From positions 1 to 32,785 of the forward strand of contig VEMX01000040.1 in assembly GCA_009711805.1 (NCBI GenBank): a stretch of DNA of 32,785 bases, given 5' to 3'. Below the pieces are notes generated by a model that worked only from the letters and a program-made list of their open reading frames with translations, did not search any database and had not been told where the DNA came from. Numbering within the stretch: position 1 is the stretch's first letter; the number at the start of each line of letters is the position of its first letter. This stretch comes from Balneolaceae bacterium. GTDB taxonomy: Bacteria; Bacteroidota; Rhodothermia; Balneolales; Balneolaceae. Positions 3,234 to 24,769 of the stretch are shown here, in pieces. Both the position numbers and the translations under genes were made by a program.

Positions 3234-5690
3234 TTACTCACTCCTTAAACTATCCACGGGGTTAACCATAGCGGCTTTTATGGAATAATAGCTTACAGTA
3301 ATCAAGGCAATGAGCAGGGTTGCAATTCCTGTTACAAAGAATAATCCGGCTCCAATTTCAATGCTATAGGCAAAGTCGGAGAGCCATTGCTCCATCACAT
3401 ACCACGAGAGAGGTGCGGCTATTATAATGGACATCAGGATCAGTTTTACAATCCCTTTATTCAGCAGAAAGATAATCTGGCTTATCCCGGCACCGAGCAC
3501 TTTTCGAATGCCAATTTCTTTGGTTTTATTGACAGCGGTTAATCCAGCCAGCCCAAATAATCCAAGACAGGCAATCAGGATAGCCATTAAGGTAGAAACA
3601 CCCATAATTTGTAGCCATTGCTGATATTGTTCGTATTGACGGGCTACGGCATCATCCAAAAACCAGTAGTTAAATGGGGTGAAAGGGGCTGCTTTTTTCC
3701 ACGAAGCTTCCAGTTTTGGAAGGGTTTCTGCGATCATACCTTCTTCAATTTTAATGGCAATATCTGTTATTCCACCTTGGTCGGGATCCATATGGAAGAG
3801 CATAGGCTTTATTTCTGATTCCATGGATTGAAAATGGAAGTTCTTAACCACCCCAATAATCGTAGAGGGGTTTTCTTCTCCTTTCCATGGAAGCTGCTCA
3901 CCAACCGGTTTTTCCCAACCCATTGACTCAACAAGTGCCTCGTTTACAATAATGGATTCAGTTATATCGGCAGGACGGTCTTTGGAAAAATTACGCCCCG
4001 CAACCAGTTCTATCCCCAGCGTGTTAGCAAGATCTGTATCCACAAAATAAATAAAGGATTCTTTCATTTCGCCATCTACGCCAAACCCATACACATTTGA
4101 TCCTTTGGTGAAGGCTGGGGCCATTCCGCTCACATTTTTAATACCCGGAATACTGGCTAATTCATCTCGGTAGCGTTCCATAAGTTTGGTACCATTCTCA
4201 TCAAAGCCGGTAAAGGTGGATACAAACAGCACCTGCTCTTCATTATAGCCCAATTCTTTTCCGCTTACATAATCCAGTTGCTTATACATGATCAGGGAGC
4301 TGATGATGAGAAAAATGGACAGACTGAATTGTGCTACCAAAAGTCCTTTGGTGAGTCTCGGTTTGAACTGAAAAACACTCAATCCCTTTAATACTTTAAC
4401 AGGTTGAAAACGGGACAGAATGAGCGCAGGATAACTTCCGGCAATGAGTCCGGTTGTAAAGGTGATCCCGAGCAAAATGGCCAGGAATCCCGCATCCGTA
4501 AAGTAATTGATGGAGAGCGATTTTCCGGCAATTGCATTGAAAAAAGGTAAGCTCAGTTCCGCAATGCAGACCCCGGCAAGCATGGCAAAAAGAGTAAGTA
4601 ACTGTGTTTCGCCCCAAAACTGGAGAGCAATTTGGCTGCGATGGGCCCCGGATGCTTTTCGAATGCCGACTTCTTTTGCCCTTCCTGCCGAACGAGCCAG
4701 GGCCAGTGTGATATAATTGATGCAGGCGATAATCAAGATCAGTACGGCAATGGTGCCAAGGATGTAGGAATACAAGGGGTTGCTAACATTGTACCATTCA
4801 GCGGCGGCATCAAGGTGAATGCCTGTGAGCGGAGAGATAACGAATTCGGCAATGGGGGCCTCTTCCGGTAAACCGAGGCGGTCTCGGCTCCCCTGCCAGT
4901 TTTCAGCATAGCGTTCTTCGGCAAGATCATTTAGTTTTTTGGTGAATTGTTCGATATCTGCCCCAGGATTAAGTTGAACAAATATCGGTGTGTTAAAACT
5001 AGTCCAGCGCTCAATGTTGAAATCATAAAAGGGCTTGTTTTCGATCCGGGCCACCATGGAAAAGGGCAGGCTGGAATTTGAAGGAGGGGCTTCTGCAATA
5101 CCCGTCACCGTAAACACATGTTCCTCGTTTTGAATGGTAACAGCCAGGGTTTGGCCCATGGGATCTTCATCGCCAAAATATTTATGGGCGGTTTCAGGGG
5201 TAAGCACGAGATTTCGGGGGTCGCTTAACACATTTTCTGCTGAGCCCTTGAGCAGGGGAAATGTAAACACTTCAAAAAAGGAAGGATCCACTAAAAGAAT
5301 GTCTTGCTCATAAGAAAGGGTTTCATTCCGGACGATTAAGTTGCTTTCGTCTGTACGGACTACCTGCTTAATTTCGGGAAAAAGATCACTGATGGTGGGG
5401 CCCAGGGGGAGAGGAAGCCAGGGAGTTTTACTTTTTCCTTCCGGGAATCTCGAATCAAAAAATGGGGTGGGTTCGATGTCGGATTTTAGCTTTTGATACC
5501 TGATTTGTTCGATCCGATATATATTATCCGCATTTTCATGGAAGCCATCATATGAATACTCATCCTGTATAAACAGATAAATGAGAATACAACAGGTGAT
5601 CCCCAGTGTCAATCCAAAGATATTAATGAGGGAATACAGCTTCTGTTTGCGGATATTCCGAAAGGCAATTTTAAAGTAATTCTTTAGCAT
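3234..5690 (-). CDS. FtsX/MacB-like ABC transporter permease (paralogue 1)
   Basis: An 818-residue membrane protein with the duplicated layout of large Bacteroidota MacB-like permeases. There is an N-terminal transmembrane helix at about residues 18-40 and a periplasmic MacB core domain to about 290. A first FtsX block carries the cytoplasmic motif AKEVGIRKASGA, then come a second periplasmic domain and a second FtsX block with KEIGIRKVLGA. The protein ends in VNPVDSLRSE, shared by all paralogues here. It has no ATPase domain, so it must borrow an ABC subunit; the only one in the window is at 15810-16499. It is the last gene of a three-permease run, 37 bases after the upstream paralogue, with no promoter of its own seen. 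Substrate is unknown; such systems export or extract lipoproteins, peptides or toxic compounds. Confidence 0.88.
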   Translation of the reverse strand: MLKNYFKIAFRNIRKQKLYSLINIFGLTLGITCCILIYLFIQDEYSYDGFHENADNIYRIEQIRYQKLKSDIEPTPFFDSRFPEGKSKTPWLPLPLGPTISDLFPEIKQVVRTDESNLIVRNETLSYEQDILLVDPSFFEVFTFPLLKGSAENVLSDPRNLVLTPETAHKYFGDEDPMGQTLAVTIQNEEHVFTVTGIAEAPPSNSSLPFSMVARIENKPFYDFNIERWTSFNTPIFVQLNPGADIEQFTKKLNDLAEERYAENWQGSRDRLGLPEEAPIAEFVISPLTGIHLDAAAEWYNVSNPLYSYILGTIAVLILIIACINYITLALARSAGRAKEVGIRKASGAHRSQIALQFWGETQLLTLFAMLAGVCIAELSLPFFNAIAGKSLSINYFTDAGFLAILLGITFTTGLIAGSYPALILSRFQPVKVLKGLSVFQFKPRLTKGLLVAQFSLSIFLIISSLIMYKQLDYVSGKELGYNEEQVLFVSTFTGFDENGTKLMERYRDELASIPGIKNVSGMAPAFTKGSNVYGFGVDGEMKESFIYFVDTDLANTLGIELVAGRNFSKDRPADITESIIVNEALVESMGWEKPVGEQLPWKGEENPSTIIGVVKNFHFQSMESEIKPMLFHMDPDQGGITDIAIKIEEGMIAETLPKLEASWKKAAPFTPFNYWFLDDAVARQYEQYQQWLQIMGVSTLMAILIACLGLFGLAGLTAVNKTKEIGIRKVLGAGISQIIFLLNKGIVKLILMSIIIAAPLSWYVMEQWLSDFAYSIEIGAGLFFVTGIATLLIALITVSYYSIKAAMVNPVDSLRSE

Positions 5691-5727: not shown

Positions 5728-8187
5728 TTATTCACTTCTTAAACTATCTACGGGGTTGGCTAATGCTGCCTTTAGAGATTGATAACCTACAGCCAGTAAA
5801 GCTATGCTGGTGGTTACAATTCCCGCTATTATAAATTGGGTAATGCCTACTGTTGTTTTATATGCAAAGTCTTGCATCCACAAGTGTGTGGCATAAAAGC
5901 TCAAAGGAGCAGCAATAAAGAAAGCTACAACAATCAGCTTGGTATACTCTTTGTTTAACAGCATTACGATGCTTGTTGAGGTAGCTCCCAATACTTTACG
6001 CACTCCAAGTTCTTTGGCTCGCCGGGAACTTGATAGTGATGCCAGGCCAAATAGTCCAAGGCAGGCAATGAAGATGGCCAGCATTGAACCAGCCGTTACA
6101 ATTTTACTCAATCGTTCTTCCTGCCGGTATTGTTGGTCAATGGCCTGATCTAAGAATAAGTAATTAAACGGTTGACCACCGGTGATTTCATCCCAGGCTG
6201 TTTGTATGGTATTTATAGTTTCCGGAAGATCAGATGAAGCGAGTTTAAGAGTGATTCTGGGAGATGGAGAATTAAGAAAGCTAAGATTGTCGATACCCGA
6301 AAAGATGATAGATGGGTTAATGGTTATAGCCAGCGGTTTTACTTCGGAATGCAGAGATTCATAGTTAAAGTTTTCAGTCACTCCAATGATCTCATGATCA
6401 TCAAACGTCCCTGGAAGGCGCTTTCCGACAGGGTTTTCCCAGTTAAATTCGTTTGCCATAGCCTCGTTAATGATAAGAGCACGTCGTGCGTCGGATGTAT
6501 TATCAACAGAGAAATGTCGTCCGGATGTAACGGAAATATCCATTGTCTTTAGGTATTGCTCGTCAACTATATTGACATTGAATTCGTGTTTCTTGTCATT
6601 TGGGTCTCTGTAATCAACACTAATCCAACCCAATTGTGCAGGAGTATAGACCGAACTGGAGATATCTTTGACCGATGAAAGAGAAGCAATTTTGGATCTC
6701 AATAAATCACGCTTTTGAGTAGCTTGATCAATAAGGCTGGAGAATCCTTGTCCTGGAGCAGAGGTGGCATCTGTTTGTATAACCAGAACCTGTTCCTTTT
6801 CATAGCCGAGATCCACCGAACGAACGTAGTTTAGCTGCTTCTGAATAATCAGCGTACTGGCAATTAAAAAGATGGATAAGCAGAATTGAAAGACTACCAG
6901 GCTGCGGTGAAATAAACTTTTATCTCCTTTTATTTGGAGTTTGCCTTTCAGGATCTGGATGGGTTCAAAACCGGACAGGATAAGTGCCGGGTATACACCT
7001 GCAATCAGACTAATCGATACTGTCAAAGCGATGAGCAGAAGCATGGAGTCACCATTAAAAGTGAAGGATAAGTGGGTACCTGATAAACTATTGAATAAAG
7101 GTAATAACAGCTCTACAAAGATAATACCTACAGCCAGAGCCAATACTGTCATTAATAGTGTTTCACCCCAAAATTGATACATGAGGTTCCGACGCAGTGC
7201 CCCTATCGTTTTACGGATACCTACTTCTTTGGCCCGGTCGGCAGAACGGCTTACCGAGATGGTCATAAAATTAATACAAGCTATAAGAAGTAGCAGAAGG
7301 GCAATGGCAGCCAATACATATGAATAAACCGGGTTGCTGACAGTAGCAATACCCATCGGCATGTCAACATTAAGGTGGATGTCGGTTAAGGGTTGAAGAG
7401 CTACTGTGTAATTGCTGTTTTCATATTCTTCATCACCAAGTACCTGGCGCATCATTGCAGGGAATTTTGCCTCCACTGTTTTATAATCTGCCGTTTTGTT
7501 TAATAGCACATATGTTTCGGGTGCTACATTATACCATGCCTGATAGGCACGGGGATTAAACATGTCTTTTCCCTTTTCAAATGGAATCAGTATCTGGTAT
7601 TGAATGCTGGAGTTAGCCGGGGCTTCCTCGATCACACCAGTAACCGTGAAGGGCTGGAATTTATCTCCTATCTTGATTAACAGCGATTTCTGTATGGGAT
7701 CTTCATCATCAAAATAGCGCTTGGCTGCCGGTTCAGAAAGCACCACCTGGTTGGGCGAGGTGAATACGGAGGAAGCATCTCCTTTTAAAAACTCAAAATC
7801 AAAGATAGAAAAGAAAGAAGGATCAACAAGCTGAATGGGTTCGGAAAATGATTCTGAGTATTCGTCTTGTTTAACCAGGTCGTTAAAGAGGTATCGTCGA
7901 GTTGCCGATTCTATTTCGGGAATGTGCTGCTCAAGGGTAGGCTTTAGGACAAGGGGAGTAGTAGTGTTAAAATAAATATCGCCCTCGCCATAATCCTCTT
8001 TTACAGATGCACGATAAATACGATCAGATTCGGCATGGAAGGAATCATAGCTCCACTCATTAATCACATACAGTGAAATCAGAATACAACAGGCAACTCC
8101 AATGGCCAACCCAAAAATATTGATCGCCGAGTAGATTTTATACTTAGTCAGATTTCGTACTGCAATTTTAAAGTAATTCTTTAACAT
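5728..8187 (-). CDS. FtsX/MacB-like ABC transporter permease (paralogue 2)
   Basis: An 819-residue paralogue beginning MLKNYFKIAVRNLTKYKIYS, with a first transmembrane helix near residues 20-42. A large periplasmic domain follows, then an FtsX block with AKEVGIRKTIGA, a second periplasmic domain, and a second FtsX block with AKELGVRKVLGA. It ends in ANPVDSLRSE. Spacing of 37 bases to the next gene and 44 bases from the previous one points to a single transcript with its neighbours, started at the sigma-54-like promoter near 10745. The EVGIRK-type loops are the expected contact points for the ABC ATPase in the FtsX/MacB superfamily. No substrate can be read from the sequence. Confidence 0.88.
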   Translation of the reverse strand: MLKNYFKIAVRNLTKYKIYSAINIFGLAIGVACCILISLYVINEWSYDSFHAESDRIYRASVKEDYGEGDIYFNTTTPLVLKPTLEQHIPEIESATRRYLFNDLVKQDEYSESFSEPIQLVDPSFFSIFDFEFLKGDASSVFTSPNQVVLSEPAAKRYFDDEDPIQKSLLIKIGDKFQPFTVTGVIEEAPANSSIQYQILIPFEKGKDMFNPRAYQAWYNVAPETYVLLNKTADYKTVEAKFPAMMRQVLGDEEYENSNYTVALQPLTDIHLNVDMPMGIATVSNPVYSYVLAAIALLLLLIACINFMTISVSRSADRAKEVGIRKTIGALRRNLMYQFWGETLLMTVLALAVGIIFVELLLPLFNSLSGTHLSFTFNGDSMLLLIALTVSISLIAGVYPALILSGFEPIQILKGKLQIKGDKSLFHRSLVVFQFCLSIFLIASTLIIQKQLNYVRSVDLGYEKEQVLVIQTDATSAPGQGFSSLIDQATQKRDLLRSKIASLSSVKDISSSVYTPAQLGWISVDYRDPNDKKHEFNVNIVDEQYLKTMDISVTSGRHFSVDNTSDARRALIINEAMANEFNWENPVGKRLPGTFDDHEIIGVTENFNYESLHSEVKPLAITINPSIIFSGIDNLSFLNSPSPRITLKLASSDLPETINTIQTAWDEITGGQPFNYLFLDQAIDQQYRQEERLSKIVTAGSMLAIFIACLGLFGLASLSSSRRAKELGVRKVLGATSTSIVMLLNKEYTKLIVVAFFIAAPLSFYATHLWMQDFAYKTTVGITQFIIAGIVTTSIALLAVGYQSLKAALANPVDSLRSE

Positions 8188-8231: not shown

Positions 8232-10655
8232 TTACTCACTCCTCAAACTATCCACGGGGTTAACCATGGCGGCTTTTATGGATTGATAGGAAACGGTGAT
8301 CCAGGCAATAGCCAGGGCTGCTGTTCCTGCCCAAATAAAAGTTATCAGGGGTACATCAATCCGATATGCAAACCCACCCAGCCATTGGTCCATGGCGTAC
8401 CACGCAATGGGTATGGCAAGGGTAATACTCAACAAGACCAGCAGGGTAAACCGCTTAGATATCAAAACAACAATTTGAGAGATAGTAGCTCCCAATGTTT
8501 TCCGGATGCCTATTTCCTTGATTCGCTGTTGGGCGGTAAACGAAGCCAGCCCAAACAAACCTAAAGAAGCAATGATGATGGCAAGGATGGCAAAGGCTCC
8601 GAAAATCTGTCCCAACCGTTGTTCCGATGCATATTGTTCTTCAAAATTGTCTTCTATAAAATAATAGGTGAAGGGGTAGTCGGGACGCCAAAAGGTCCAT
8701 TTCTCCTCAAGAAAAGAAAGTACTTCGGCGCGGTGTGTATCTTTAAATTTCACAGCAACATTCCGGATCCTGGTGTCAGGTATCAGGAATACAATAGGTG
8801 CAATGTTTTGATGCAAAGACTCAAAATTAAAATCCCGGACGACCCCGATAATATGGCCCCGACGCCCGCCATAGTGGAATTGCTTGTCAAGTGCTTGTTC
8901 GGGGGACTCCCACCCGATAGCCTTAACAGCGGACTCATTCAGAATAAAAGCTTCGGTTGAATCACTAGCTAAATTGTAGTCGAAATCACGTCCTGCAATT
9001 AATGAGATGCCAAAAGTTTCTAAATAGTTGTGGCTTACATGTATGTCGGCAACCCTGGTATTGATGGTTTGAAGTTCTCCATTTACTTCGGCCGTGGTTC
9101 CCTGGGCATCCAACAGTCGGCCCGATGGTACCCGGCTGGCTTCGGCTACATTTATAATGCCGGAGTGTTGTAGCAGCTGTTGGCGGTATTCGGTAAAATT
9201 GGAGACAATCTGGTTGCTTACCGGTAGCACGGCAATGTTCTCTTTGTCGAACCCAAGGTCTTTATTTTGCATAAACTCAAGTTGGTTGTATACAATACCC
9301 ATGGAGGCAATTAAAGCTACTGAAATAGTGAATTGGGACACTACCAGTACGGATCGGAATTTTTGATGTGCGCCGGCTATTTTGAAGGTTCCCTTCAACA
9401 CTTTGGAGGGCTGAAATCCGGAAAGGAAAAAAGCAGGATAGCTTCCTGCAATCAACCCTACAAATGCTATGATACCCAGCAGGCCAATAAGGTGAGTGTA
9501 ATTTTCAAGTAAATTGAGGGAGAGTTCTTTCCCAATAAAACTGTTAAAGTAGGGCAGCGATAGTTCTGCAAGTATAATAGCAACCATCATAGCTATGAAC
9601 GAGAGAAACACTGATTCACCTACAAACTGGTTGATCAGAGACCGACGGTCGGCACCTATTACTTTTCGCAATCCAACTTCTATAGCACGCCTGGCCGATC
9701 GTGCAGTACTCAGGTTCATAAAGTTGATACAGGCAATCAGAAGAATGAAAATGGCGATAGCGGTATAGATATATACATATTCGATATTTCCATTCGCTTC
9801 AACTTCAGAGTCAAGCTGGGAGTACAGGTGGATATCGGTGAGGGGCCAGAGATTGAGCTGGGTACTTGTTGATGCTGGCGAACCATCCTGGTTGGGTGCC
9901 ATATGTTTGTCGATGAAATTGGGTAACTGTGCCTGAAGCAAGTCCGGATTATAGTCTTCCGGCAACAAAAGGTAGGTTGCAAAATTGTTACTTCCGAAGC
10001 TGCTCATAAATTGTTCCTGGCCACCATAGAATTGAACCACGGGTTCCATAGAGGCTAAGAAATCGAACTGGAAGTGTGAATTTTCCGGAATATCTTCCAT
10101 AACACCTTTTACCTGAAACTGAAGAGGCATGCCGTCAATTTCTACGTCGATCGGCTTCCCCATAGGATCGGTATCACCAAAGTATTTTTTTGCAGTGCTC
10201 CGGGTAAGTACCACGCCATCGGGATAGGTGAGAGCCGTAGCCGGGTCACCCTGTAGCATCTCCCAGGAGAATACTTTAAACAAGTCGGCATCAGCAAAGA
10301 AAAACCGGTTCTCTACAAATGTTTTGCCTTCATACTTCACCAATGGGCTGATTTGCAAAAACCGAACAGCTTCTTTTACGGGCTCAAAATCTTCTTCTAA
10401 CAGCGGAGCAAAGGGTGGTGCTGTATGTCCCAGGTGCAAATTGGTTTTCCCGTCCTGATTAATCCATTCTCTTGAAACCCGGTAGATACGGTCGGAGTTG
10501 TCGTGGTAGCGATCGTAGCTGAGTTCATCCTGGATATAAAGGAGAATAAGTATGCTGACAGCCATTCCCAGGGCAAGGCCAAAAATGTTTATAAAAGAGT
10601 AACTTTTGAACCGTTTTATGTTCCGGTATATAACTAAAAGAATATGTTTAAGCAT
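8232..10655 (-). CDS. FtsX/MacB-like ABC transporter permease (paralogue 3)
   Basis: An 807-residue permease counted from MLKHILLVIYRNIKRFKSYS. An in-frame ATG 45 bases upstream would add a non-conserved leader, but the chosen start matches the other paralogues (ML-K-...-RN). It shows two repeats of periplasmic MacB-type domain plus FtsX block, with the loops AIEVGLRKVIGA and KEIGIRKTLGA, and the common C-terminus VNPVDSLRSE. It is the first gene of the three-permease operon. A sigma-54-like promoter lies 83 bases upstream of this start and a 37-bp activator-type dyad a further 53 bases upstream, so it is probably switched on by the NtrC-type regulator encoded at 18208-19587. Confidence 0.88.
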   Translation of the reverse strand: MLKHILLVIYRNIKRFKSYSFINIFGLALGMAVSILILLYIQDELSYDRYHDNSDRIYRVSREWINQDGKTNLHLGHTAPPFAPLLEEDFEPVKEAVRFLQISPLVKYEGKTFVENRFFFADADLFKVFSWEMLQGDPATALTYPDGVVLTRSTAKKYFGDTDPMGKPIDVEIDGMPLQFQVKGVMEDIPENSHFQFDFLASMEPVVQFYGGQEQFMSSFGSNNFATYLLLPEDYNPDLLQAQLPNFIDKHMAPNQDGSPASTSTQLNLWPLTDIHLYSQLDSEVEANGNIEYVYIYTAIAIFILLIACINFMNLSTARSARRAIEVGLRKVIGADRRSLINQFVGESVFLSFIAMMVAIILAELSLPYFNSFIGKELSLNLLENYTHLIGLLGIIAFVGLIAGSYPAFFLSGFQPSKVLKGTFKIAGAHQKFRSVLVVSQFTISVALIASMGIVYNQLEFMQNKDLGFDKENIAVLPVSNQIVSNFTEYRQQLLQHSGIINVAEASRVPSGRLLDAQGTTAEVNGELQTINTRVADIHVSHNYLETFGISLIAGRDFDYNLASDSTEAFILNESAVKAIGWESPEQALDKQFHYGGRRGHIIGVVRDFNFESLHQNIAPIVFLIPDTRIRNVAVKFKDTHRAEVLSFLEEKWTFWRPDYPFTYYFIEDNFEEQYASEQRLGQIFGAFAILAIIIASLGLFGLASFTAQQRIKEIGIRKTLGATISQIVVLISKRFTLLVLLSITLAIPIAWYAMDQWLGGFAYRIDVPLITFIWAGTAALAIAWITVSYQSIKAAMVNPVDSLRSE

Positions 10656-10737
10656 GATGTTTGGGATAGTTAGCAGTAGAAACCCAGACCGTTTTGACAA
10701 TTTTTATATATGGTATGGCCGTGCGTTTATTATACTA

Positions 10738-10753
10738 TTCAACAACCGTACCA
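10738..10753 (-). promoter_or_regulatory. sigma-54-like promoter of the three-permease operon
   Basis: The minus strand reads TGGTACG-GTTG-TTGAA, matching the -24/-12 layout of sigma-54 promoters (TGGCACG-N4-TTGCW), with the invariant GG at -24 and A in place of C at -12. Three sister sites in this window share the form TGGYAYG-N4-TTGA. Start codon of the first permease is 83 bases downstream. Confidence 0.7.
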
Positions 10754-10806: not shown

Positions 10807-10843
10807 TGTTCGATACCATACAGGAAGTGTACGGTAATGAACA
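10807..10843. promoter_or_regulatory. 37-bp dyad, candidate upstream activator site (copy B)
   Basis: Two inverted 16-bp half-sites, TGTTCGATACCATACA and the complement of TGTTCATTACCGTACA, are separated by five bases. The half-site consensus across all copies is roughly TGTYCnnTnYCnnACA. It lies 53 bases upstream of the sigma-54-like promoter at 10738-10753. Copies A and C have identical length and layout. Confidence 0.75.
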
Positions 10844-11044: not shown

Positions 11045-13423
11045 TTATTCACTCCTTAAACTATCTACAGGTTTAATTGTAGCAGCTTTTATCGCCTGAA
11101 TACCTACCGTGAGCCAGGCAATAGCCAAGGCTATGAGAGAGGTACTAATAAAGTACCAAGGCTTCAACTCTATGTGGTAGGCAAAACCGTTGAGCCATTT
11201 GGCCGCCATTATATAGCTTATGGGTATAGCTATGATAATGGCTGTTAACACAATTTTGGCAAAATGTCCGGATAATAAATAAACGATACCAATATCATCG
11301 GCACCAAGTACTTTACGGATTCCGATTTCTTTTTGTCTTCTTTCGGCGGTAAAGGCGGCTAATCCAAATAATCCAAGGCAGGAAATAATGATGGCGATTC
11401 CTGCAAAGTATCGGGATAGCACAGAAACCCGTTGTTCAGCTTTATACTGAGATTGAAAATTTTGATCCAAAAAGCTGTATTCCAGAGGGTAGCCGGGGTT
11501 AAAGGAATTGTAATAATCTCGTAGCTGGTTAAGTGTTCGTTGCTCAGTTCCTGCTTGTATTTTAGCCATCACCAGGTTGGTTTCATCAGGATCGAACCTG
11601 ACCATAAGTGGCTTTATCTCGTTATGGAGAGAGGTGAAATGAAAGTTCTTAGCAATTCCAATTATCTGTTTAGTTTCTCCCCAGAGGCTAATCGGTTTCC
11701 CAATGGGATCGTTGTAACCAACCAGTTCTGCGGCCGCTTCATTAATTATGACTTTTTCATTTTCGTTGCTAAACTTTGTTGAGAATGTACGTCCTTCTTT
11801 GAGTTTAATATCCAGCGTTTCAAGCAAATTGTAATTAGCAGTTATTAGGTAGAATCGTACAATCTCATCCTCGTTCTTCCCTTCCCACCAAACACCACTG
11901 GTTGAACTGGTGTTGTCAATGATGTTTTGCCCTATACTTGAGGCATTCACTATTCCAGGGATGTTGCGTACTCCTTTGAGGAAGGTGTCATGGTTTTTAA
12001 CAGCTCTGCCCTCCATCGAAAAGTATGCAATATTGTCTTTGTTGTATCCAAGGTTTTTGTCTTGTATAAACTCTACCTGTTTATATACAACAAGTACGGA
12101 TGCAATCAGAATTACCGATAGTGTGAATTGGAATACAACCAAGCCTTTTCGTATCCAGTTTTCGCCAGCTGAGCTGTATGATTTGCCCTTTAATATTTTT
12201 GCAGGGCTAAAACCAGAAAGGTGCAGTGCGGGATAACTTCCAGCCAGAAGCCCGGTAACCAGAACTATGCCCAGAACAATTAATGCCAGGGTAGGGTCGA
12301 ATATTAGTGAAAGTTTCTTACTGGTGATCTGATTAAACTGAGGAAGAAGAAGTTCAACCATAAAAAGTGCCAGAATCATGGAGCACAAAGTTATGGCCAC
12401 CGATTCAACCAAAAACTGAATAATAAGTTTTTCCCTGCCTGCTCCTATAGCTTTTTTTACCCCAACTTCTTTAAGCCGTTGGGATGCCTTGGCTGTTGCA
12501 AGATTCATGAAATTTATACAGGCTATGATCACTATAAATAGAGCTATGATCGAAAACAGCCGTACATATTCGATACGCCCTCCAGCCTGTATGCCATTTT
12601 CAAAATTCCCATATAAATATCGATCCGAATAGGATTGTGCAAACAGGGTTACATTTGAAGTCTCTATTTTTTGTTTAATGAAGTTTTCAATGTCTTTGTT
12701 GAACTGGTCAATATGGACTCCTTCCTGCAACACTATATAGGTGCTGGGTCCGTGATTGTCCCAGTTTATGGGCCTTCCAGTGGTCTTACTCATTTCTTTG
12801 AATATTTCGAAGGTTAATACAAAGTCGAATTCTTCGGTTGAGTTGGCTGGTACATCTTCAAAAACACCGGTGATGGTTACTTGTTTGTCAAAATCCCTCA
12901 TTTTCCAGCGCAGGGTTTGGCCAATGGCTTGTTGGGGAGAGTCAAATAATCGGGAGGCCAGAGTTGTGGATATAACAATAGATTGTTTGTCAGCTAAAAC
13001 CTGGCTCTTATCACCATATATTAAGTTGTATGAGAACAGATTGAAGAAATCGCTCCCGGCAAACTGTCCCATGGCTTTAATGTTTTCTGATGGGGTTGAT
13101 AAGGTGAATTTTCCAAACCATGAAGAGGGGGTGACAGCAGCAGCATATTCAACTTTTGGTATTTCCCGGGCCATAGTTTCGGCAAGGAGGTCGGGGGTAA
13201 ATTCCTGGGTAACAATGCGGTTGGCCAGTTGCTGGTTCTCCATTATTTGATAAAGCCGCTCATTGTTTTCGTGAAAGGCATCAACCTGTAATTCATCATT
13301 CACCCACAGAAAAATGAGTGTGGCACAGGCCAGCCCAACCGAAAGACCTATAAGGTTAATCAGAAAAGAGCTTTTAAATCTCTTGATATTTCGATAGATG
13401 AGCAGTAGTGTGTGTTTAAGCAT
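11045..13423 (-). CDS. FtsX/MacB-like ABC transporter permease (paralogue 4)
   Basis: A 792-residue permease counted from MLKHTLLLIYRNIKRFKSSF; three codons upstream could be added (MVN) but the ML-K start matches its paralogues. Layout is transmembrane helix, periplasmic domain, FtsX block with LKEVGVKKAIGA, second periplasmic domain, second FtsX block with KEIGIRKVLGA, and C-terminus IKPVDSLRSE. It is separated from the three-permease operon by about 390 bases that hold that operon's promoter, so it forms its own transcript. A sigma-54-like promoter is at 13581-13596 and a 37-bp dyad at 13649-13685. The VKK in the first loop, instead of IRK, is a small deviation. Confidence 0.88.
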   Translation of the reverse strand: MLKHTLLLIYRNIKRFKSSFLINLIGLSVGLACATLIFLWVNDELQVDAFHENNERLYQIMENQQLANRIVTQEFTPDLLAETMAREIPKVEYAAAVTPSSWFGKFTLSTPSENIKAMGQFAGSDFFNLFSYNLIYGDKSQVLADKQSIVISTTLASRLFDSPQQAIGQTLRWKMRDFDKQVTITGVFEDVPANSTEEFDFVLTFEIFKEMSKTTGRPINWDNHGPSTYIVLQEGVHIDQFNKDIENFIKQKIETSNVTLFAQSYSDRYLYGNFENGIQAGGRIEYVRLFSIIALFIVIIACINFMNLATAKASQRLKEVGVKKAIGAGREKLIIQFLVESVAITLCSMILALFMVELLLPQFNQITSKKLSLIFDPTLALIVLGIVLVTGLLAGSYPALHLSGFSPAKILKGKSYSSAGENWIRKGLVVFQFTLSVILIASVLVVYKQVEFIQDKNLGYNKDNIAYFSMEGRAVKNHDTFLKGVRNIPGIVNASSIGQNIIDNTSSTSGVWWEGKNEDEIVRFYLITANYNLLETLDIKLKEGRTFSTKFSNENEKVIINEAAAELVGYNDPIGKPISLWGETKQIIGIAKNFHFTSLHNEIKPLMVRFDPDETNLVMAKIQAGTEQRTLNQLRDYYNSFNPGYPLEYSFLDQNFQSQYKAEQRVSVLSRYFAGIAIIISCLGLFGLAAFTAERRQKEIGIRKVLGADDIGIVYLLSGHFAKIVLTAIIIAIPISYIMAAKWLNGFAYHIELKPWYFISTSLIALAIAWLTVGIQAIKAATIKPVDSLRSE

Positions 13424-13580
13424 GTTAACCAATTTGTGATGTTAGTTTGGATTCAACCAAATTCAGGGACCTGAAGGCGGGTGGCAAATCTAAAAGTGTT
13501 AAAAGCCTACGGAAGAAATTGCGAACAGTTATTTCTCCGCCATGTTCAGGATTATGTGATGACTATTTTGTTGTAGGTTA

Positions 13581-13596
13581 CTCAATAATCGTACCA
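13581..13596 (-). promoter_or_regulatory. sigma-54-like promoter of permease paralogue 4
   Basis: The minus strand reads TGGTACG-ATTA-TTGAG, followed by TAAC as in the adaptor promoter at 17895-17910. It starts about 158 bases upstream of the permease start. The spacing between the -24 and -12 parts is exactly that of the other three sites. Confidence 0.72.
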
Positions 13597-13648: not shown

Positions 13649-13685
13649 TGTCCGGTACCATACAGTAGGTGTGCGGAAATGGACA
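13649..13685. promoter_or_regulatory. 37-bp dyad, candidate upstream activator site (copy A)
   Basis: Half-sites TGTCCGGTACCATACA and the complement of TGTCCATTTCCGCACA, with a 5-base spacer, lie 52 bases upstream of the sigma-54-like promoter at 13581-13596. The first half-site shares TACCATACA with copy B. Its outer edge is only 12 bases from the strong terminator at 13698-13731, which shields the site from transcription coming from upstream. Confidence 0.75.
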
Positions 13686-15809: not shown

Positions 15810-16499
15810 TCACACATGAAACCCTTCCTGCATATTCTCAGTTACAACATGTCCGTCAAATAAGTGGATGACCCGTCGGGCATAATCAGCATCATGCGGA
15901 GAGTGCGTTACCATCACGATGGTGGTTCCGGCTTCATTGAGCTCCGCTAAAAGCTTCATTACTTCGTCGCCGTGGTCAGAATCCAGGTTACCGGTCGGCT
16001 CATCGGCAAGAATCAGCTTGGCGTTGGCTACTACGGCCCGTGCTATGGCCACCCGTTGCTGCTGTCCACCTGATAGCTGCTGAGGGAAGTGATTGCGGCG
16101 ATGCATCATGCCCATGCGGTCGAGAGCGGTTTCAACTTTCTCTTTACGTTCAGCTGAATCCACTCCAAGATAGAGCAGGGGAAGTTCTACATTTTCAAAA
16201 ACAGTAAGTTCATCAATCAGGTTAAAACTCTGGAAAATAAAGCCAATATTTCCTTTACGGAGCTGTGCACGTTCCCGCTCGGAGTGAGTGGATATTTCGT
16301 GATCTAAAAAATGATATTCCCCGCTGGATGGGTTGTCCAGAAGCCCCATAATATTAAGCAGTGTTGACTTTCCGCATCCTGAAGGCCCCATAATAGCCAC
16401 AAATTCACCTTCCTGAATTTCGAGATTTACATTACTCAAAGCGGTAGTCTCTACTTCCTCAGTGGTGTATACTTTCTTAAGGTTCTTGGTTTTAATCAT
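15810..16499 (-). CDS. ABC transporter ATP-binding protein (MacB/LolD type)
   Basis: A 229-residue ATPase from [11 protein letters not shown]; nine more codons upstream are open but not conserved-looking. All ABC motifs are visible: Walker [10 protein letters not shown], signature LSGGQQQR, Walker B LILADEP followed by TGNLD, and the switch histidine in VMVTHSP. These are typical of the MacB/LolD/FtsE group that powers FtsX-type permeases from the cytoplasm. It follows the adaptor gene by about 95 bases on the same strand and is the only ABC ATPase in the window. It is therefore inferred to drive all four permeases encoded at 3234-13423. Confidence 0.92.
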
Positions 16500-16593
16500 G
16501 ATGTTTATGTTTGATTTAATGGTCAATTAAAGTTGTTTGTAAGAAACTTGGTACCGGTTGTTCTAATCGTGAATCATCTATTGTCGTTTGTCA

Positions 16594-17856
16594 TCAGTCA
16601 AGCACAAGCACCTCATTATTTCCAAAAGTATCGTAACCGGAAGTAATTACACGGTCACCGGCTTGCAGGCCCGATACCACTTCAAAGTATTCCGGATTCT
16701 GGCGGCCCAGCCGAATGTTTCGCCGAACCGCTTTGGTACCGTCCTCATTAAGCACAAATACCCAGTTACCCCCGGTTGTTTGATAAAAGCCACCCCGGGA
16801 CAGTAATATGGCATCCGAAGATTCCCCAAGTTCCAGCCGGATACGCAGGGTTTGTCCACGCCGGAGCCCGTCGGGAGCTTCTCCTATAAATTCCATATCT
16901 ACCTCGAACTGTCCTTCATTAATAACAGGGTACACCTTGGTAATTGTAAGATTGTGTGTGTTCCCGGCAAAGCTAAAAGATCCTTTTAGGCCGGTTGTTA
17001 TTCTTGAAAGGTGATATTCGTCGATGCCTACCCGTACTTTATAGTCATCAAGGATATCCACCTGCCCAATACGTTCACTATTGCTGATCGACTGCCCCTG
17101 ATTCAATTCAATAGTACTAAGCTGACCGGATATAGGAGCTTTTACAACCAGGCGATCCAGCATCTGTTGAACCCCTTCTAAACTCTGTTGCATGCGATCC
17201 AGTGACTGATCAATTTGCTGAATTTGGCGATTTGCTTTTATAGAGTCTTGTTTAAACACTTCATACAAAAGGTCATACCGCTTTTTCTGGTAATTATAAT
17301 TCTCTTTCGCTTCCAGAAAAGTTTGTTCCGATACCAATCCTCTGTTTCTCTCATACAGCTTTTTTTGGCGAAGGAATTCTGCCCGGTTAATATTCAGCTG
17401 ATTTTGTGCTCCGGCCAGTTGTTGCTTAAGGTTTAAGGTGTTTTGCTCAATGTTCAGCCTGGAGTTCCTGGTTTGGTTGATTTGGTCGTATATAGTAGAT
17501 GTTTGGCGAAGCACATTAAGCTGGAGGGTTGAGTTTGCAAGGGTAAGGATGGTATCTCCCTTTTCAACATTTACCCCGGATTCTATATAAACTTCTTCTA
17601 CCACCCCTCCTTCAATGGCATCCAGGTATATAGTTTGAATAGGCTGAACGATACCGTTCTCCTGAATAAATTCCTGGAAAGTGGATTCTTCAACGGTAGA
17701 GATGGTAATCTTCTCTTTTTCAACATTCAAAGTTGAACGGACATCCATAAAGACAAATGCGTAAACACTCAACCCAATAATTGCAATCACCCCGATCACC
17801 ATTAGTATGCGTTTAGATGTCCATGTTTTCTTTTTAATTTTTTTATCCATTCCCAT
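16594..17856 (-). CDS. periplasmic adaptor subunit (HlyD/MacA family)
   Basis: A 420-residue protein with a lysine-rich N-terminus and one membrane helix at about residues 17-36. A split lipoyl/barrel-sandwich domain follows (GGVVEEVYIESGVNVEKGDTI and later VVKAPISGQLS). Between the halves is a long coiled-coil hairpin at about 110-230. Beta-barrel and membrane-proximal domains end in GDRVITSGYDTFGNNEVLVLD. It should link inner-membrane permease to an outer-membrane channel or substrate partner. It is the first gene of the adaptor-ATPase operon, directly under the sigma-54-like promoter at 17895-17910. A methionine at residue 3 is an equally possible start. Confidence 0.9.
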   Translation of the reverse strand: MGMDKKIKKKTWTSKRILMVIGVIAIIGLSVYAFVFMDVRSTLNVEKEKITISTVEESTFQEFIQENGIVQPIQTIYLDAIEGGVVEEVYIESGVNVEKGDTILTLANSTLQLNVLRQTSTIYDQINQTRNSRLNIEQNTLNLKQQLAGAQNQLNINRAEFLRQKKLYERNRGLVSEQTFLEAKENYNYQKKRYDLLYEVFKQDSIKANRQIQQIDQSLDRMQQSLEGVQQMLDRLVVKAPISGQLSTIELNQGQSISNSERIGQVDILDDYKVRVGIDEYHLSRITTGLKGSFSFAGNTHNLTITKVYPVINEGQFEVDMEFIGEAPDGLRRGQTLRIRLELGESSDAILLSRGGFYQTTGGNWVFVLNEDGTKAVRRNIRLGRQNPEYFEVVSGLQAGDRVITSGYDTFGNNEVLVLD

Positions 17857-17894: not shown

Positions 17895-17910
17895 CTCAAT
17901 TAGCGTGCCA
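17895..17910 (-). promoter_or_regulatory. sigma-54-like promoter of the adaptor-ATPase operon
   Basis: The minus strand reads TGGCACG-CTAA-TTGAG. The -24 half is a perfect sigma-54 match; the -12 half has GA where GC is usual. It lies about 39 bases upstream of the adaptor start, giving a short leader. The flanking TTTGG and GAGTAAC are also found at the permease 4 promoter. Confidence 0.78.
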
Positions 17911-17962
17911 AACTTAGCAAATTGTCTACAAAGCCATATAGAGGTGATTATTACAAAAAAAA

Positions 17963-17999
17963 TGTTCACATTCCAACAACGAGTGTGCGATATCGGACA
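17963..17999. promoter_or_regulatory. 37-bp dyad shared by divergent promoters (copy C)
   Basis: Half-sites TGTTCACATTCCAACA and the complement of TGTCCGATATCGCACA lie with a 5-base spacer. The site sits between two divergent sigma-54-like promoters, 52 bases from the adaptor promoter on the left and 53 bases from the regulator promoter on the right. It could serve as activator site for both directions. Confidence 0.75.
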
Positions 18000-18052
18000 G
18001 TGTAATTTTGTTAGCCCATATAATAGAAGATGTTAAGCAGGATTTGTTACAA

Positions 18053-18068
18053 TGGTATGGTATTTGAA
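18053..18068 (+). promoter_or_regulatory. sigma-54-like promoter of the regulator-kinase operon
   Basis: The plus strand reads TGGTATG-GTAT-TTGAA, the same form as the three minus-strand sites. It is 140 bases upstream of the regulator start. Its placement 53 bases from dyad C predicts positive autoregulation. Confidence 0.6.
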
Positions 18069-18207: not shown

Positions 18208-19587
18208 ATGACTAATAATAAAATCGGAAGGGCACTGGTAGTTGACGATGATAGTGATGTGTTGCATGCAGCAAGACTCTACCTGAAACAACATCTGGAG
18301 AAGGTGGATGTTGAAAGTAATCCAAGATTGATTCCCTCACTTTTAAAAAATTATGATTACGATGTAGTATTGCTGGATATGAATTTCCATGAAGATGTAA
18401 GTAGTGGAGAAGAAGGATTTCATTGGCTGGAGCGTATCCTGGAGATTGATCCTTCAATGGCCGTAGTGCTAATAACGGCCTATGGGGATGTAGAAAAAGC
18501 CGTAAAAGCTGTTAAAAAAGGAGCATCCGATTTTGTGCTAAAGCCGTGGCAAAACGAAAAGCTTCTGGCTACGGTCAACTCGGCACTTAATCTCAGTAAG
18601 TCGAGAAGGCAGGTTACAAAACTGCGTACCCAGAACGATATGCTGAAGTCAGAGACCGATCAGCACTACCAGGATATCATCGGGAAAAGTAAGGCGATAA
18701 CCAAGGTTTTTGAAACCATAGAAAAGGTTGCTAAAACCGATGCCAATATTTTAGTAACAGGTGAGAATGGAACAGGAAAAGAGTTAGTAGCCCGCGCTCT
18801 GCACCGGCGGTCGAACCGGAGTGAGGAAGTTTTTATTACGGTTGATATGGGGGCATTGCCAGAGAGCTTATTTGAGTCGGAACTATTTGGACATGTGAAG
18901 GGGGCTTTTACAGATGCCCGGGAGTCGAGGGCCGGACGATTCGAGGCTGCTTCGGGGGGAACCCTGTTTCTGGATGAAATCGGAAACCTTCCTCTGCAGT
19001 TACAGCCCAAACTGCTTTCGGCATTACAAACTCACAAAATTACCAGGATTGGAGCCAACAAACCCACAGAAATTGATATCCGGCTGATATGTGCTACCAA
19101 TGTGGCGCTTGGTGAAATGGTAGCACAGCAAGATTTTCGGCAAGATCTGCTGTACCGTATCAACACTATTGAAATTAATTTACCACCTTTGCGGGAGCGA
19201 ATGGAAGACATCTCCTTGCTGGCTGAACATTTTCTCAAGAATTACCGCAAAAAGTATAAGAAGGAAATAAAAGGAATTAAGGAGCGGGCATTAAATCACC
19301 TGGAGGAGTATCACTGGCCGGGGAATATACGAGAGCTAGAACATGCTATTGAACGCGCTGTGATTATGACAGATTCGGCTATGCTGGAGAAGGGTGATTT
19401 TTTGTTGACGTCTATATCAGGAAAAGAACACCAGCTGCCTGTGAGTGGACTTAATCTGGAAGAAGTTGAAAAAACAGTGATACGAAAAGCCATGGATAAA
19501 CATGGAGGAAATATATCGCATGCAGCAGATGAGTTAGGATTAACCAGAGCCTCGCTGTACCGACGGTTGGAGAAATATGATCTTTAA
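18208..19587 (+). CDS. NtrC-family sigma-54-dependent response regulator
   Basis: A 459-residue protein with three domains. The receiver domain has VVDDDSD at 11-17, phosphoacceptor Asp57 in LLDMNF, and Lys in the FVLKPW segment. The AAA+ domain spans about 160-400, with Walker A GENGTGKE near 185, Walker B GTLFLDEIG and sensor motifs. A Fis-type helix-turn-helix is at the C-terminus (GGNISHAADELGLTRASLYRRLEKY). The sigma-54 contact loop reads GAFTDA (near residue 232) instead of the usual GAFTGA. It is divergent from the adaptor-ATPase operon and overlaps the kinase gene. With four sigma-54-like promoters and three shared dyads around it, it is the likely activator of the whole transporter set and of itself. 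Confidence 0.93.
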   Translation: MTNNKIGRALVVDDDSDVLHAARLYLKQHLEKVDVESNPRLIPSLLKNYDYDVVLLDMNFHEDVSSGEEGFHWLERILEIDPSMAVVLITAYGDVEKAVKAVKKGASDFVLKPWQNEKLLATVNSALNLSKSRRQVTKLRTQNDMLKSETDQHYQDIIGKSKAITKVFETIEKVAKTDANILVTGENGTGKELVARALHRRSNRSEEVFITVDMGALPESLFESELFGHVKGAFTDARESRAGRFEAASGGTLFLDEIGNLPLQLQPKLLSALQTHKITRIGANKPTEIDIRLICATNVALGEMVAQQDFRQDLLYRINTIEINLPPLRERMEDISLLAEHFLKNYRKKYKKEIKGIKERALNHLEEYHWPGNIRELEHAIERAVIMTDSAMLEKGDFLLTSISGKEHQLPVSGLNLEEVEKTVIRKAMDKHGGNISHAADELGLTRASLYRRLEKYDL

Positions 19588-20944
19588 AAGTTTTAGGATG
19601 GGGATTGTCATCAGGATATCATTCCTGACGGCTACAATTTTCATGGTTACATATCTTGTGCTGGATACCCAGTATTATGTGAGCCAGTTTATTCTGAGTA
19701 TCATAATCGTAATACAAGTGATTATGCTCGCCAAATACCTGGAGCGAACCAACGTACTGCTGACCCGCTTTTTGGAAGCTATTAAGTACTCTGATTTTAC
19801 CGGTGCATTTCGGAATCATGAAATGGGAGCGGGTTTTGGTGATTTAAATAAAGCCTTCAGCAGGGTGATCGACAAGTTTAAAGATGAGCGGAGCAAGAAA
19901 GAAGAAAGCATTCGTTACCTGGAAACAGTAGTGCAGCACATAGGAATTGGATTGATGTGCTTTAATGCAAAAGGGGAAGTGGTGCTATTAAATACGGCCG
20001 CTAAACGGTTGTTCCAGGTAGCAACCATCCGTAATATTGATTCATTAAAATCGATCTCTGAGAAGCTGTTTGAAGTGGTAAAAAAAATGAAAGGAGGCAG
20101 CCGTTCCCTGGCTCGCGTTTCCGTCAATAAAGAAACATTACAGCTGGCCATCTATGCCACCGATTTTAAAATGAGAAGTAAAGCATACAAGCTGGTGTCT
20201 TTTCAGAATATCCATACAGAACTGGAAGAGAAAGAGATGGAAGCCTGGCAGAATCTGACACAAGTGCTGGCACACGAAATCATGAATTCCATCACACCTA
20301 TTGCCTCTTTGTCTGCCACGGTGCATATGCTGCTGGATCAGAATGCGACCACTAAAGATGAAAACTATGAAATTAACGGGGAAACGATACAGGACGTGAA
20401 AGATGCGCTGAACACTATCAGCAAGCGGAGCCAGGGCTTGATGCGTTTTGTAAATTCATACCGTGATTTTACACAAATACCGGAACCCGATTACACCATT
20501 TTTGAAGTTCGTGAACTACTCGAACGTGTGGCAAATCTGATGAGGTCGGAGGCAAGCCATCAACACATTAAACTGGAAGTGACCGTTGACCCCCAAAGCC
20601 TGGAGCTAACGGCTGACATCCATTTGGTAGAACAGGCACTTATAAATCTGGTAAAGAATGCAATACGTGCTATGGAAGGCCAGCAAGACGGTGTTATTAA
20701 ACTGAAAGGAAGCATCGATGAAGTAGGAAAAGTGAACATTTCCATTATCGACAGCGGGCCTGGAGTCAAGAAATCCGTTTCCGAGAAAATATTTATTCCA
20801 TTCTATACCATGGGGAGTAAAAAAGAAGGTAAAGGTTCTGGTATAGGGTTGAGTTTGTCGCGGCAAATTATGAGACTTCACGGAGGTACTTTAACACTGG
20901 ATTCAGAACTGGGTGAAGGTTCTGAGTTTAAACTCCGGTTTTAA
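19577..20944 (+). CDS. NtrB-like membrane sensor histidine kinase
   Basis: A 455-residue kinase with two closely spaced N-terminal membrane helices (about residues 8-27 and 33-52) and almost no periplasmic loop, so it probably senses within the membrane or cytoplasm. A PAS-like region follows (about 115-215, starting near IGIGLMCFNAKGEVVLLN). Next come the HisKA motif LAHEIMNSITP with His near residue 233, and a HATPase domain with NLVKNAIRAM, DSGPGV and GKGSGIGLSLS. Its start overlaps the response regulator by 11 bases, so the two are a coupled pair. The signal is unknown; membrane or envelope stress is a reasonable guess given the transporter targets. Confidence 0.92.
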   Translation: MIFKSFRMGIVIRISFLTATIFMVTYLVLDTQYYVSQFILSIIIVIQVIMLAKYLERTNVLLTRFLEAIKYSDFTGAFRNHEMGAGFGDLNKAFSRVIDKFKDERSKKEESIRYLETVVQHIGIGLMCFNAKGEVVLLNTAAKRLFQVATIRNIDSLKSISEKLFEVVKKMKGGSRSLARVSVNKETLQLAIYATDFKMRSKAYKLVSFQNIHTELEEKEMEAWQNLTQVLAHEIMNSITPIASLSATVHMLLDQNATTKDENYEINGETIQDVKDALNTISKRSQGLMRFVNSYRDFTQIPEPDYTIFEVRELLERVANLMRSEASHQHIKLEVTVDPQSLELTADIHLVEQALINLVKNAIRAMEGQQDGVIKLKGSIDEVGKVNISIIDSGPGVKKSVSEKIFIPFYTMGSKKEGKGSGIGLSLSRQIMRLHGGTLTLDSELGEGSEFKLRF

Positions 20945-23619: not shown

Positions 23620-23755
23620 AATAAGTTTTTTATCGATTTAAAAAATAAAAGAGTTAGCTAATGGCATCATTCTTTGTTATCTGCAGTGGTAATAAATACT
23701 ACGATGCTGGACTATTAACGACAATATTAGATACTTAATAAACGAACAAACACAT

Positions 23756-24769
23756 ATGGCACAGGAACAAAATTTTGAATTTAATCTGCCGCCGCAGTTT
23801 GAGAAAATCTCAAAAAACATACGGGTCATTATTATTGGTCTTGTGGTGGTAGCGGCATTTTTCTCCTCTTTCTTTACGGTAGACCCGGAAGAAGTAGGCG
23901 TGGTTATGCGCTTTGGAGAATATGTAAGAACAGCGGAACCGGGACTTAATTATAAAATTCCTTTTATAGAAGATGTACGGTTAGTACCTGTAGAACGACA
24001 ACTGAAGCATGAGTTTGGATATCGAACAACATCAGCAGGGGTAAATTCAACATACCAGAAAAGAGGATACGCAGGTGAGTCGTTAATGCTTACCGGCGAC
24101 CTGAACCTGGCTGATGTGGAGTGGGTAGTTCAATATCGGATCGATGATCCCTTTAGCTACCTGTTTAAAGTAAGAAATGCAGAATCTACTTTACGCGATA
24201 TTTCGGAGGCGGCGGTTCGCCAGATTGTGGGAGACCGCACGGTGAACGAAGTACTTACGGTGGGCCGTGCCGAAATAGCCAGCGTAGCACGAGTAGCCAT
24301 ACAGGATTTGTGCAACGAATATGAAATGGGAATAAGGGTAGAGCAGATTGTACTACAGGATATCAATCCCCCGGATCCTGTAAAACCTTCCTTTAACGCT
24401 GTGAACGAAGCGCAGCAGGAAAGAGAAACGTTCATTAATCAGGCACGTGCCGATTACAACCGGATTATTCCGAGAGCAAGAGGTGAGGCCGAACAAACCA
24501 TTCAGCAAGCCGAGGGGTATGCCACCCACCGGGTAAATACAGCCGAAGGTGAAGTTTCGAGGTTTAACGACCTTTACTCCGAATACATTAAAGCACCGGA
24601 AGTAACCAAGCGGCGGATATTCCTGGAAACCATGCAGGAAGTGATCCCGAGAATGGGACAGAAAATTATTACCGATGAAGATGGAAATAATGTACTTCCA
24701 TTGCTGCAAATGCAGATGAATGGAATGCAAAAAAGTACTGGTTCAACTAACAATCAGGGAGGAAACTAA
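23756..24769 (+). CDS. hflK: HflK, FtsH-modulating SPFH membrane protein
   Basis: A 337-residue protein with a short cytoplasmic N-terminus, one membrane helix at about 24-42, and a periplasmic SPFH/band-7 domain starting at DPEEVGVVMRFGEYVRTAEPGLNYKIP. A central insert with GYRTTSAGVN and the DVEWVVQYRI-DDPFSYLF strands are typical of HflK. The helical tail has RARGEAEQTIQQAEGY and ends in a Gln/Asn-rich stretch. With HflC it forms a cage around the FtsH protease and limits its access to membrane substrates. The stop overlaps the hflC start by one base (TAATG), so the pair is coupled. Confidence 0.95.
   Translation: MAQEQNFEFNLPPQFEKISKNIRVIIIGLVVVAAFFSSFFTVDPEEVGVVMRFGEYVRTAEPGLNYKIPFIEDVRLVPVERQLKHEFGYRTTSAGVNSTYQKRGYAGESLMLTGDLNLADVEWVVQYRIDDPFSYLFKVRNAESTLRDISEAAVRQIVGDRTVNEVLTVGRAEIASVARVAIQDLCNEYEMGIRVEQIVLQDINPPDPVKPSFNAVNEAQQERETFINQARADYNRIIPRARGEAEQTIQQAEGYATHRVNTAEGEVSRFNDLYSEYIKAPEVTKRRIFLETMQEVIPRMGQKIITDEDGNNVLPLLQMQMNGMQKSTGSTNNQGGN

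Follow-up and report, generated by a model that had tools for sequence, protein, structure and literature searches.

A paired-box element between divergent sigma-54-type promoters in a Balneolaceae bacterium and its probable service to adaptor-ATPase, regulator-kinase and scattered permease genes

Described systems of related design

A single NtrC-type activator working through divergent sigma-54 promoters, one of them for its own operon, is known from the two-component system ZraSR of Escherichia coli and Salmonella, in which the regulator activates both zraSR and zraP in connection with envelope stress (PMC4987338). A table in PMC4641369, citing Fievet et al. 2011, lists a second case, the ORP operons of Desulfovibrio vulgaris, where two divergent sigma-54 operons share one GAFTDA activator, DVU2106; as that table presents it, this differs from the present locus in having a one-component regulator, a cell-division function and other genes. 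An over-representation of COG0577 (FtsX-like) permeases at predicted sigma-54 promoters was recently described for Bacteroidia and termed the first evidence of such a link (PMC12316311, 2025), although the portion of that article drawn on here deals in COG-level statistics, without regulator assignment, UAS, spacing or regulon.

The locus described here resembles ZraSR-ZraP in having one NtrC-type regulator and divergent sigma-54-type promoters that include that of the regulator's own operon, and ZraR (1ojl) is among the closest solved homologues of this regulator by sequence. It differs in its predicted targets, an adaptor-ATPase operon and many distant permease operons, and in the GAFTDA motif of the regulator, which scored 343.9 bits against the NCBIfam equivalog for ZraR, below the cut-off of 760. 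To our knowledge, sigma-54 regulons in Bacteroidota/Balneolota lineages are little documented. The wiring is thus of the type known from ZraR (one activator, divergent sigma-54 promoters), while the pump regulon appears to be undescribed: a limited literature search, which also covered the ADOP permeases and the GAFTDA variant, found no description of the regulator, its box or its regulon and brought up only PMC12316311 and PMC4641369.

Genes of the locus

The window, i.e., the whole 32,785-nt stretch analyzed (contig VEMX01000040.1 of assembly GCA_009711805.1, positions 1 to 32,785), contains these genes:

16594..17856, minus strand: HlyD/MacA-type periplasmic adaptor; nearest NCBIfam model DarC, score below its cut-off
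15810..16526, minus strand: ABC ATPase by domain match; 67-nt intergenic gap to the adaptor gene
18208..19587, plus strand: NtrC-type response regulator (REC, AAA+ with GAFTDA, Fis HTH); presumed UAS-binding activator
19577..20944, plus strand: histidine kinase with 2 membrane helices and ~5 residues between them; its start overlaps the regulator gene
8232..10700, minus strand: duplicated MacB/FtsX permease; first gene of an apparent three-permease operon
5728..8187, minus strand: permease-size ORF (819 aa); second gene of that apparent operon, assigned by size
3234..5690, minus strand: permease-size ORF (818 aa); third gene of that apparent operon, assigned by size
11045..13432, minus strand: duplicated MacB/FtsX permease; 308 bits to TIGR03434 ADOP, cut-off 622

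The ATPase gene probably shares an operon with the adaptor gene. Their products and the permeases are like those of MacAB, the DarBCD exporters and the ADOP permeases in combining an adaptor, a LolD/MacB-like ATPase and duplicated MacB/FtsX permeases, but the scores here lie under the curated cut-offs, and several of the permeases stand alone with no recognised adaptor neighbour. In an NCBIfam search, five permeases matched TIGR03434 ADOP over the full length at 270-308 bits (cut-off 622.3), and none of the Dar exporter models reached its cut-off (DarB 110-150, DarC 226 and DarD 248 bits versus 700, 450 and 375). Judged by these scores, the permeases are homologous to ADOP TIGR03434 and not filed as members of it.

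The regulator matched PF00072, PF00158 and PF02954, all above cut-off. Its sigma-54 contact motif (residue 232) reads GAFTDA, versus GAFTGA in the 3 other sigma-54 activators of the genome; GAFTDA is among the variants listed as expected to maintain activation (PMC4641369), and 78 of 80 distant orthologues carry GAFTDA or GSFTDA. A narrow recognition-helix pattern matched 32/80 of these orthologues, and the listed misses had, by eye, nearly the same helix. The kinase architecture of two helices with ~5 residues between them was similar in most of the orthologues examined. Intramembrane-sensing kinases likewise have two helices with a very short linker, and given the ~5 residues here the kinase may respond to something within the membrane or to a cue passed on by the transporter. 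Among solved structures, the receiver domain of a two-component response regulator, PDB 2qr3, matched the regulator (E 1.4e-29), and the protein it comes from may be an orthologue.

Two boxes, and seven copies in the genome

Between the adaptor and regulator genes, the first-pass annotation had placed two sigma-54-like promoters pointing away from each other and, at 52 and 53 bases from them, a 37-bp inverted repeat. Both promoters are present and the distances were borne out. The element itself is real, at 17963-17999, but as a single dyad it is a weak inverted repeat (9/18 pairs symmetric), and two 16-bp boxes, TGTTCACATTCCAACA-ACGAG-TGTGCGATATCGGACA, describe it better. Two further copies in the window, and with them the control of permeases that they suggest, had been missed. 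The elements and promoters are:

17963..17978, no strand: UAS box 1, TGTTCACATTCCAACA; the weaker box, nearer the adaptor promoter
17984..17999, no strand: UAS box 2, TGTGCGATATCGGACA; the palindromic box, farther from the adaptor promoter
17896..17910, minus strand: sigma-54-type promoter of the adaptor-ATPase operon, TGGCACGCTAATTGA (TGGCACG-CTAA-TTGA); 52 nt from the UAS
18053..18067, plus strand: sigma-54-type promoter of the regulator-kinase operon, TGGTATGGTATTTGA (TGGTATG-GTAT-TTGA); 53 nt from the UAS
10807..10843, no strand: two-box UAS, second copy, upstream of the three-permease operon
10739..10753, minus strand: sigma-54-type promoter of the three-permease operon, TGGTACGGTTGTTGA; 53 nt from the UAS at 10807
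13649..13685, no strand: two-box UAS, third copy, upstream of the single permease gene
13582..13596, minus strand: sigma-54-type promoter of the single permease gene, TGGTACGATTATTGA; 52 nt from the UAS at 13649

Both boxes have the form TGT-N10-ACA, with the consensus TGTnCG-N4-CGnACA, and their starts are separated by 21 bp; 7 of 8 pairs match in the right box, nearly a perfect palindrome, and 5 of 8 in the left, the weaker one. The 37-bp dyad was missed by a plain search for inverted repeats, which gave only the palindrome 17984-17999, as the two-box reading explains. The NifA UAS is TGT-N10-ACA. The GlrR box is TGTC-N10-GACA (PMC4987338), and the outer triplets of both sites are similar to those of the present box. 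The boxes here differ in reading TGTnCG-N4-CGnACA and in being paired 21 bp apart, and the regulator scored far under the GlrR and NifA cut-offs.

The exact pattern TGTnC-N8-ACA-N5-TGT-N8-GnACA occurs 7 times in the 4.08-Mb genome versus ~0.02 expected from base composition, three of the copies being those in the window. Six of the 7 precede adaptor, regulator or permease genes, each with a TGG[CT]A-N6-TTG[AC] promoter at 42, 52 or 53 nt, and the seventh lies by a decayed permease. The 4 copies outside the window are on contigs C48 (two), C12 and C85, and 3 of them precede permease genes; the copy at C48:16066 stands before what is left of a permease (50 residues) and lacks an intact promoter at the distance seen elsewhere. 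Several copies in one genome could reflect coincidence or the spread of a mobile repeat, but the count far exceeds expectation, the copies have only boxes and promoter in common with unrelated DNA intervening, and their position is conserved over several phyla, and we judge this explanation refuted by the comparative data. Contig C48 carries permease remnants at L065:11762-12103 and L065:9142-9342, one of which keeps the two-box element beside a decayed promoter. Next to the C12 and C85 permeases no adaptor or ATPase was recognised in the stretches read, where annotation was by ORF length only.

The near-identical spacing of the divergent pair had been taken as hard to explain by chance. The element is indeed well beyond chance, whereas the spacing is not special to this pair: a gap of 52 or 53 nt separates UAS and promoter at 4/4 window promoters and is therefore a rule of the module. 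In other genomes, 33 module copies that do not lie by the regulator gene precede 30 MacB/FtsX permease genes, 1 ABC ATPase gene and 2 genes of the beta-lactamase fold (PF00144). The latter two are in other Balneolaceae (L168:320-1438 and L178:319-1443), one being followed by an MscS-like channel gene.

Linkage to the neighbouring regulator

Orthologues of the regulator, defined by at least 63% identity (the next matches being at ~42%), are present in 28 of 92 Balneolaceae genomes. A scan of these related genomes found the element with TGGYAY-N5-TTGA at 48-57 nt in 27 of the 28 genomes with the orthologue and in 0/64 of those without it, the backward control being zero; for a relaxed box-plus-promoter module (gap 37-67 nt) the figures were 28/28 and 0/64, the backward control again giving none, all of them counts of genomes of one family that are not independent samples. 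The conservation at homologous loci that the first-pass annotation implied for its dyad is also found: all 28 orthologous loci keep both boxes, none departing from the two-box pattern by more than 1 mismatch, and the fixed letters of that pattern are conserved by construction.

A wider set comprised 80 orthologues (59-80% identity) from Balneolaceae, Cytophagales, Bacteroidales, KSB1, Aminicenantes, Acidobacteria, Latescibacteria, Zixibacteria, Desulfobacterales and others, with MAG names as deposited. When all palindromes of abcNde-N4 form were ranked, without bias towards any one, in the DNA upstream of these 80 genes, TGTnCG came first with 30 regions, followed by the related TGTnCA with 7 and an unrelated motif with 3. 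The full box TGTnCG-N4-CGnACA occurred 31 times in 38 kb of upstream DNA versus 0 in 693 kb of control DNA. One Acidobacteria locus (L111) has both boxes flanked by TTGC-ending promoters, 53 nt away on one side and 54 nt on the other. Many of the Cytophagales orthologues have no divergent adaptor gene, and no two-box element was found at them.

Since the module co-occurs with the regulator (28/28 versus 0/64) and the box ranks first across phyla, the NtrC-type regulator 18208-19587 most likely binds the boxes and would activate the adaptor-ATPase operon, the permeases and its own operon. The genome encodes 3 other clear sigma-54 activators, and binding by the regulator is itself read from sequence comparison, so one of the three, or a repressor, might be thought to occupy the boxes instead. 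Related sigma-54 activators are, however, present in all 64 family genomes that lack the orthologue, where the module is absent, which argues against them as the binder; as the box also tracks the regulator gene across phyla, we consider another binder very improbable.

Spacing and polarity at the divergent region

In the 28 orthologous loci, the adaptor-side promoter lies at a gap of 51-54 throughout. A regulator-side promoter was present in 25/28 (shuffle mean 1.3, wrong strand 0) and was not found in the other 3; it is often further from consensus, and its gap drifts among the relatives (ten at 52-54, eleven at 62-66, three at 59-61 and one at 42) while that of the adaptor side is constant. 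Near-equal two-sided spacing like that in this genome was seen also in L044, L046 and L111. As the regulator-side gap varies, equal spacing is seen in only some of the relatives and is a consequence of the usual distance between UAS and promoter in the regulon.

The boxes also have a polarity, which rests on letters outside the search pattern. Of 38 single-target sites, 32 have the palindromic box on the side away from the promoter, 4 have equal boxes and 2 have the reverse order, and at the 28 shared sites it is distal to the adaptor promoter in all 28; the shared site is thus oriented for the transporter, and equal activation of the two sides is not predicted. The first-pass annotation had proposed that one bound regulator could activate both sides equally. 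The comparisons favour one element serving two promoters, and the equality is the part that falls away. Activation of both sides alike by a single symmetrically placed complex draws on the 52 and 53 nt of this genome and on the three similar loci, but it has to contend with an element that is asymmetric in fixed polarity (a distal palindromic and a proximal degenerate box) and with a regulator side that drifts in gap and promoter quality beside a steady adaptor side, and we regard it as improbable.

The same observations could be carried further, to a UAS that serves the transporter promoter only, with the regulator-kinase operon on a housekeeping promoter, no sigma-54 feedback and a regulator-side match that is weak or a relic. 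The polarity in all 28 loci fits this, as do the variable gap, the departures from consensus, the 3 loci without a promoter and the ~140 nt between the regulator-side promoter and the regulator start codon in this genome. Yet a regulator-side promoter with GG and TTG/GC recurs far above the shuffle mean and never on the wrong strand, most of its gaps are near 42, 53 or 63-64, and the promoter pair is found again in the Acidobacteria locus L111, so that we think service to the transporter alone unlikely, if the least unlikely of the alternatives. The reading that we prefer, at a probability of roughly 0.87, is that 17963-17999 is a UAS of two adjacent dimer sites for the regulator 18208-19587, serving both divergent promoters, with its like serving the permease modules, and with feedback on the sensor. 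Against it count the TTGA or TTGG at -12 in place of TTGC, the GAFTDA of the regulator in place of GAFTGA, the shifting regulator-side gap with 3/28 loci where no promoter was found, the gaps of 59-61, the kinship of the family genomes and the Cytophagales orthologues at which neither two-box element nor divergent adaptor was found.

Gaps of the relaxed module (81 matches, with 37-67 nt allowed) fall at 41-42 (3), 51-54 (66), 59-61 (3) and 63-66 (9) and nowhere else. In distant phyla, distances from the best box cluster similarly (Rayleigh 0.62 at 10.5 bp, with 0/20000 random sets as high). The gaps of 59-61 are outside strict helical phasing and the genomes are kin, and helical phasing of the UAS-promoter gaps is therefore put no higher than likely.

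Promoters with an altered -12 element

Sigma-54 promoters have GG at -24 and GC at -12; the -12 position is considered nearly invariant, TTGC being canonical. In all four window promoters the -24 part and the spacing match the consensus TGGCAC-N5-TTGC, and the -12 element is TTGA. Single-target sites in Balneolaceae have TTGA (25) or TTGG (11) in 36/38, and in distant phyla canonical TTGC was found in 24/38 sites. Across these alignments, TTGA/TTGG at -12 is a lineage-specific change of the promoters of the predicted regulon in Balneolaceae. Genome-wide, TGGYAYG-N4-TTGA is enriched (20 versus 7 in the backward control), and TGGYAYR-N4-TTGC is not (14 versus 11). The genome has a single rpoN gene (Sigma54_DBD domain, 190.9 bits), and the RpoN sequence is ordinary by eye. 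A coupling of the -12 change to the GAFTDA variant was considered and dropped, because GAFTDA is general also in the phyla whose promoters have TTGC.

A proposed course of activation

In the mechanism that we propose, the two-helix membrane kinase 19577-20944 would sense an envelope- or export-related signal and phosphorylate the regulator, dimers of which would bind the two boxes on the same face of the DNA (21 bp being two helical turns) and assemble an AAA+ oligomer. This oligomer would remodel RpoN polymerase about five turns away, helically phased, at the adaptor-ATPase promoter 17896-17910. The regulator-kinase promoter 18053-18067 would also be activated, probably more weakly, giving positive feedback on the sensor, and UAS modules of the same type at 10807, 13649 and elsewhere would switch on duplicated MacB/FtsX permeases. 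With such modules before many permeases, one adaptor-ATPase set would be co-induced with many permeases. More tentatively, as something possible rather than probable, the whole may be an old cross-phylum code in which helically phased TGTnCG-N4-CGnACA boxes, a GAFTDA regulator and a kinase nearly without a periplasmic part tie scattered, stand-alone MacB/FtsX permeases to a shared adaptor-ATPase, making one pump with exchangeable permeases; if so, a single sensor would equip the cell with one pump whose permeases can be swapped.

What is gained for one widespread unnamed regulator is a predicted binding motif with its spacing rule and a list of putative target genes, along with a prediction of which adaptor-ATPase partners the stand-alone permeases. 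The natural series of UAS-promoter distances (~42, 53 and 64 nt) is also material for testing face-of-the-helix rules of sigma-54 activation. Downstream of the kinase gene, window positions 21085-25713 hold a gene for a SpoIIE-type phosphatase together with two of the SPFH/Band-7 kind.
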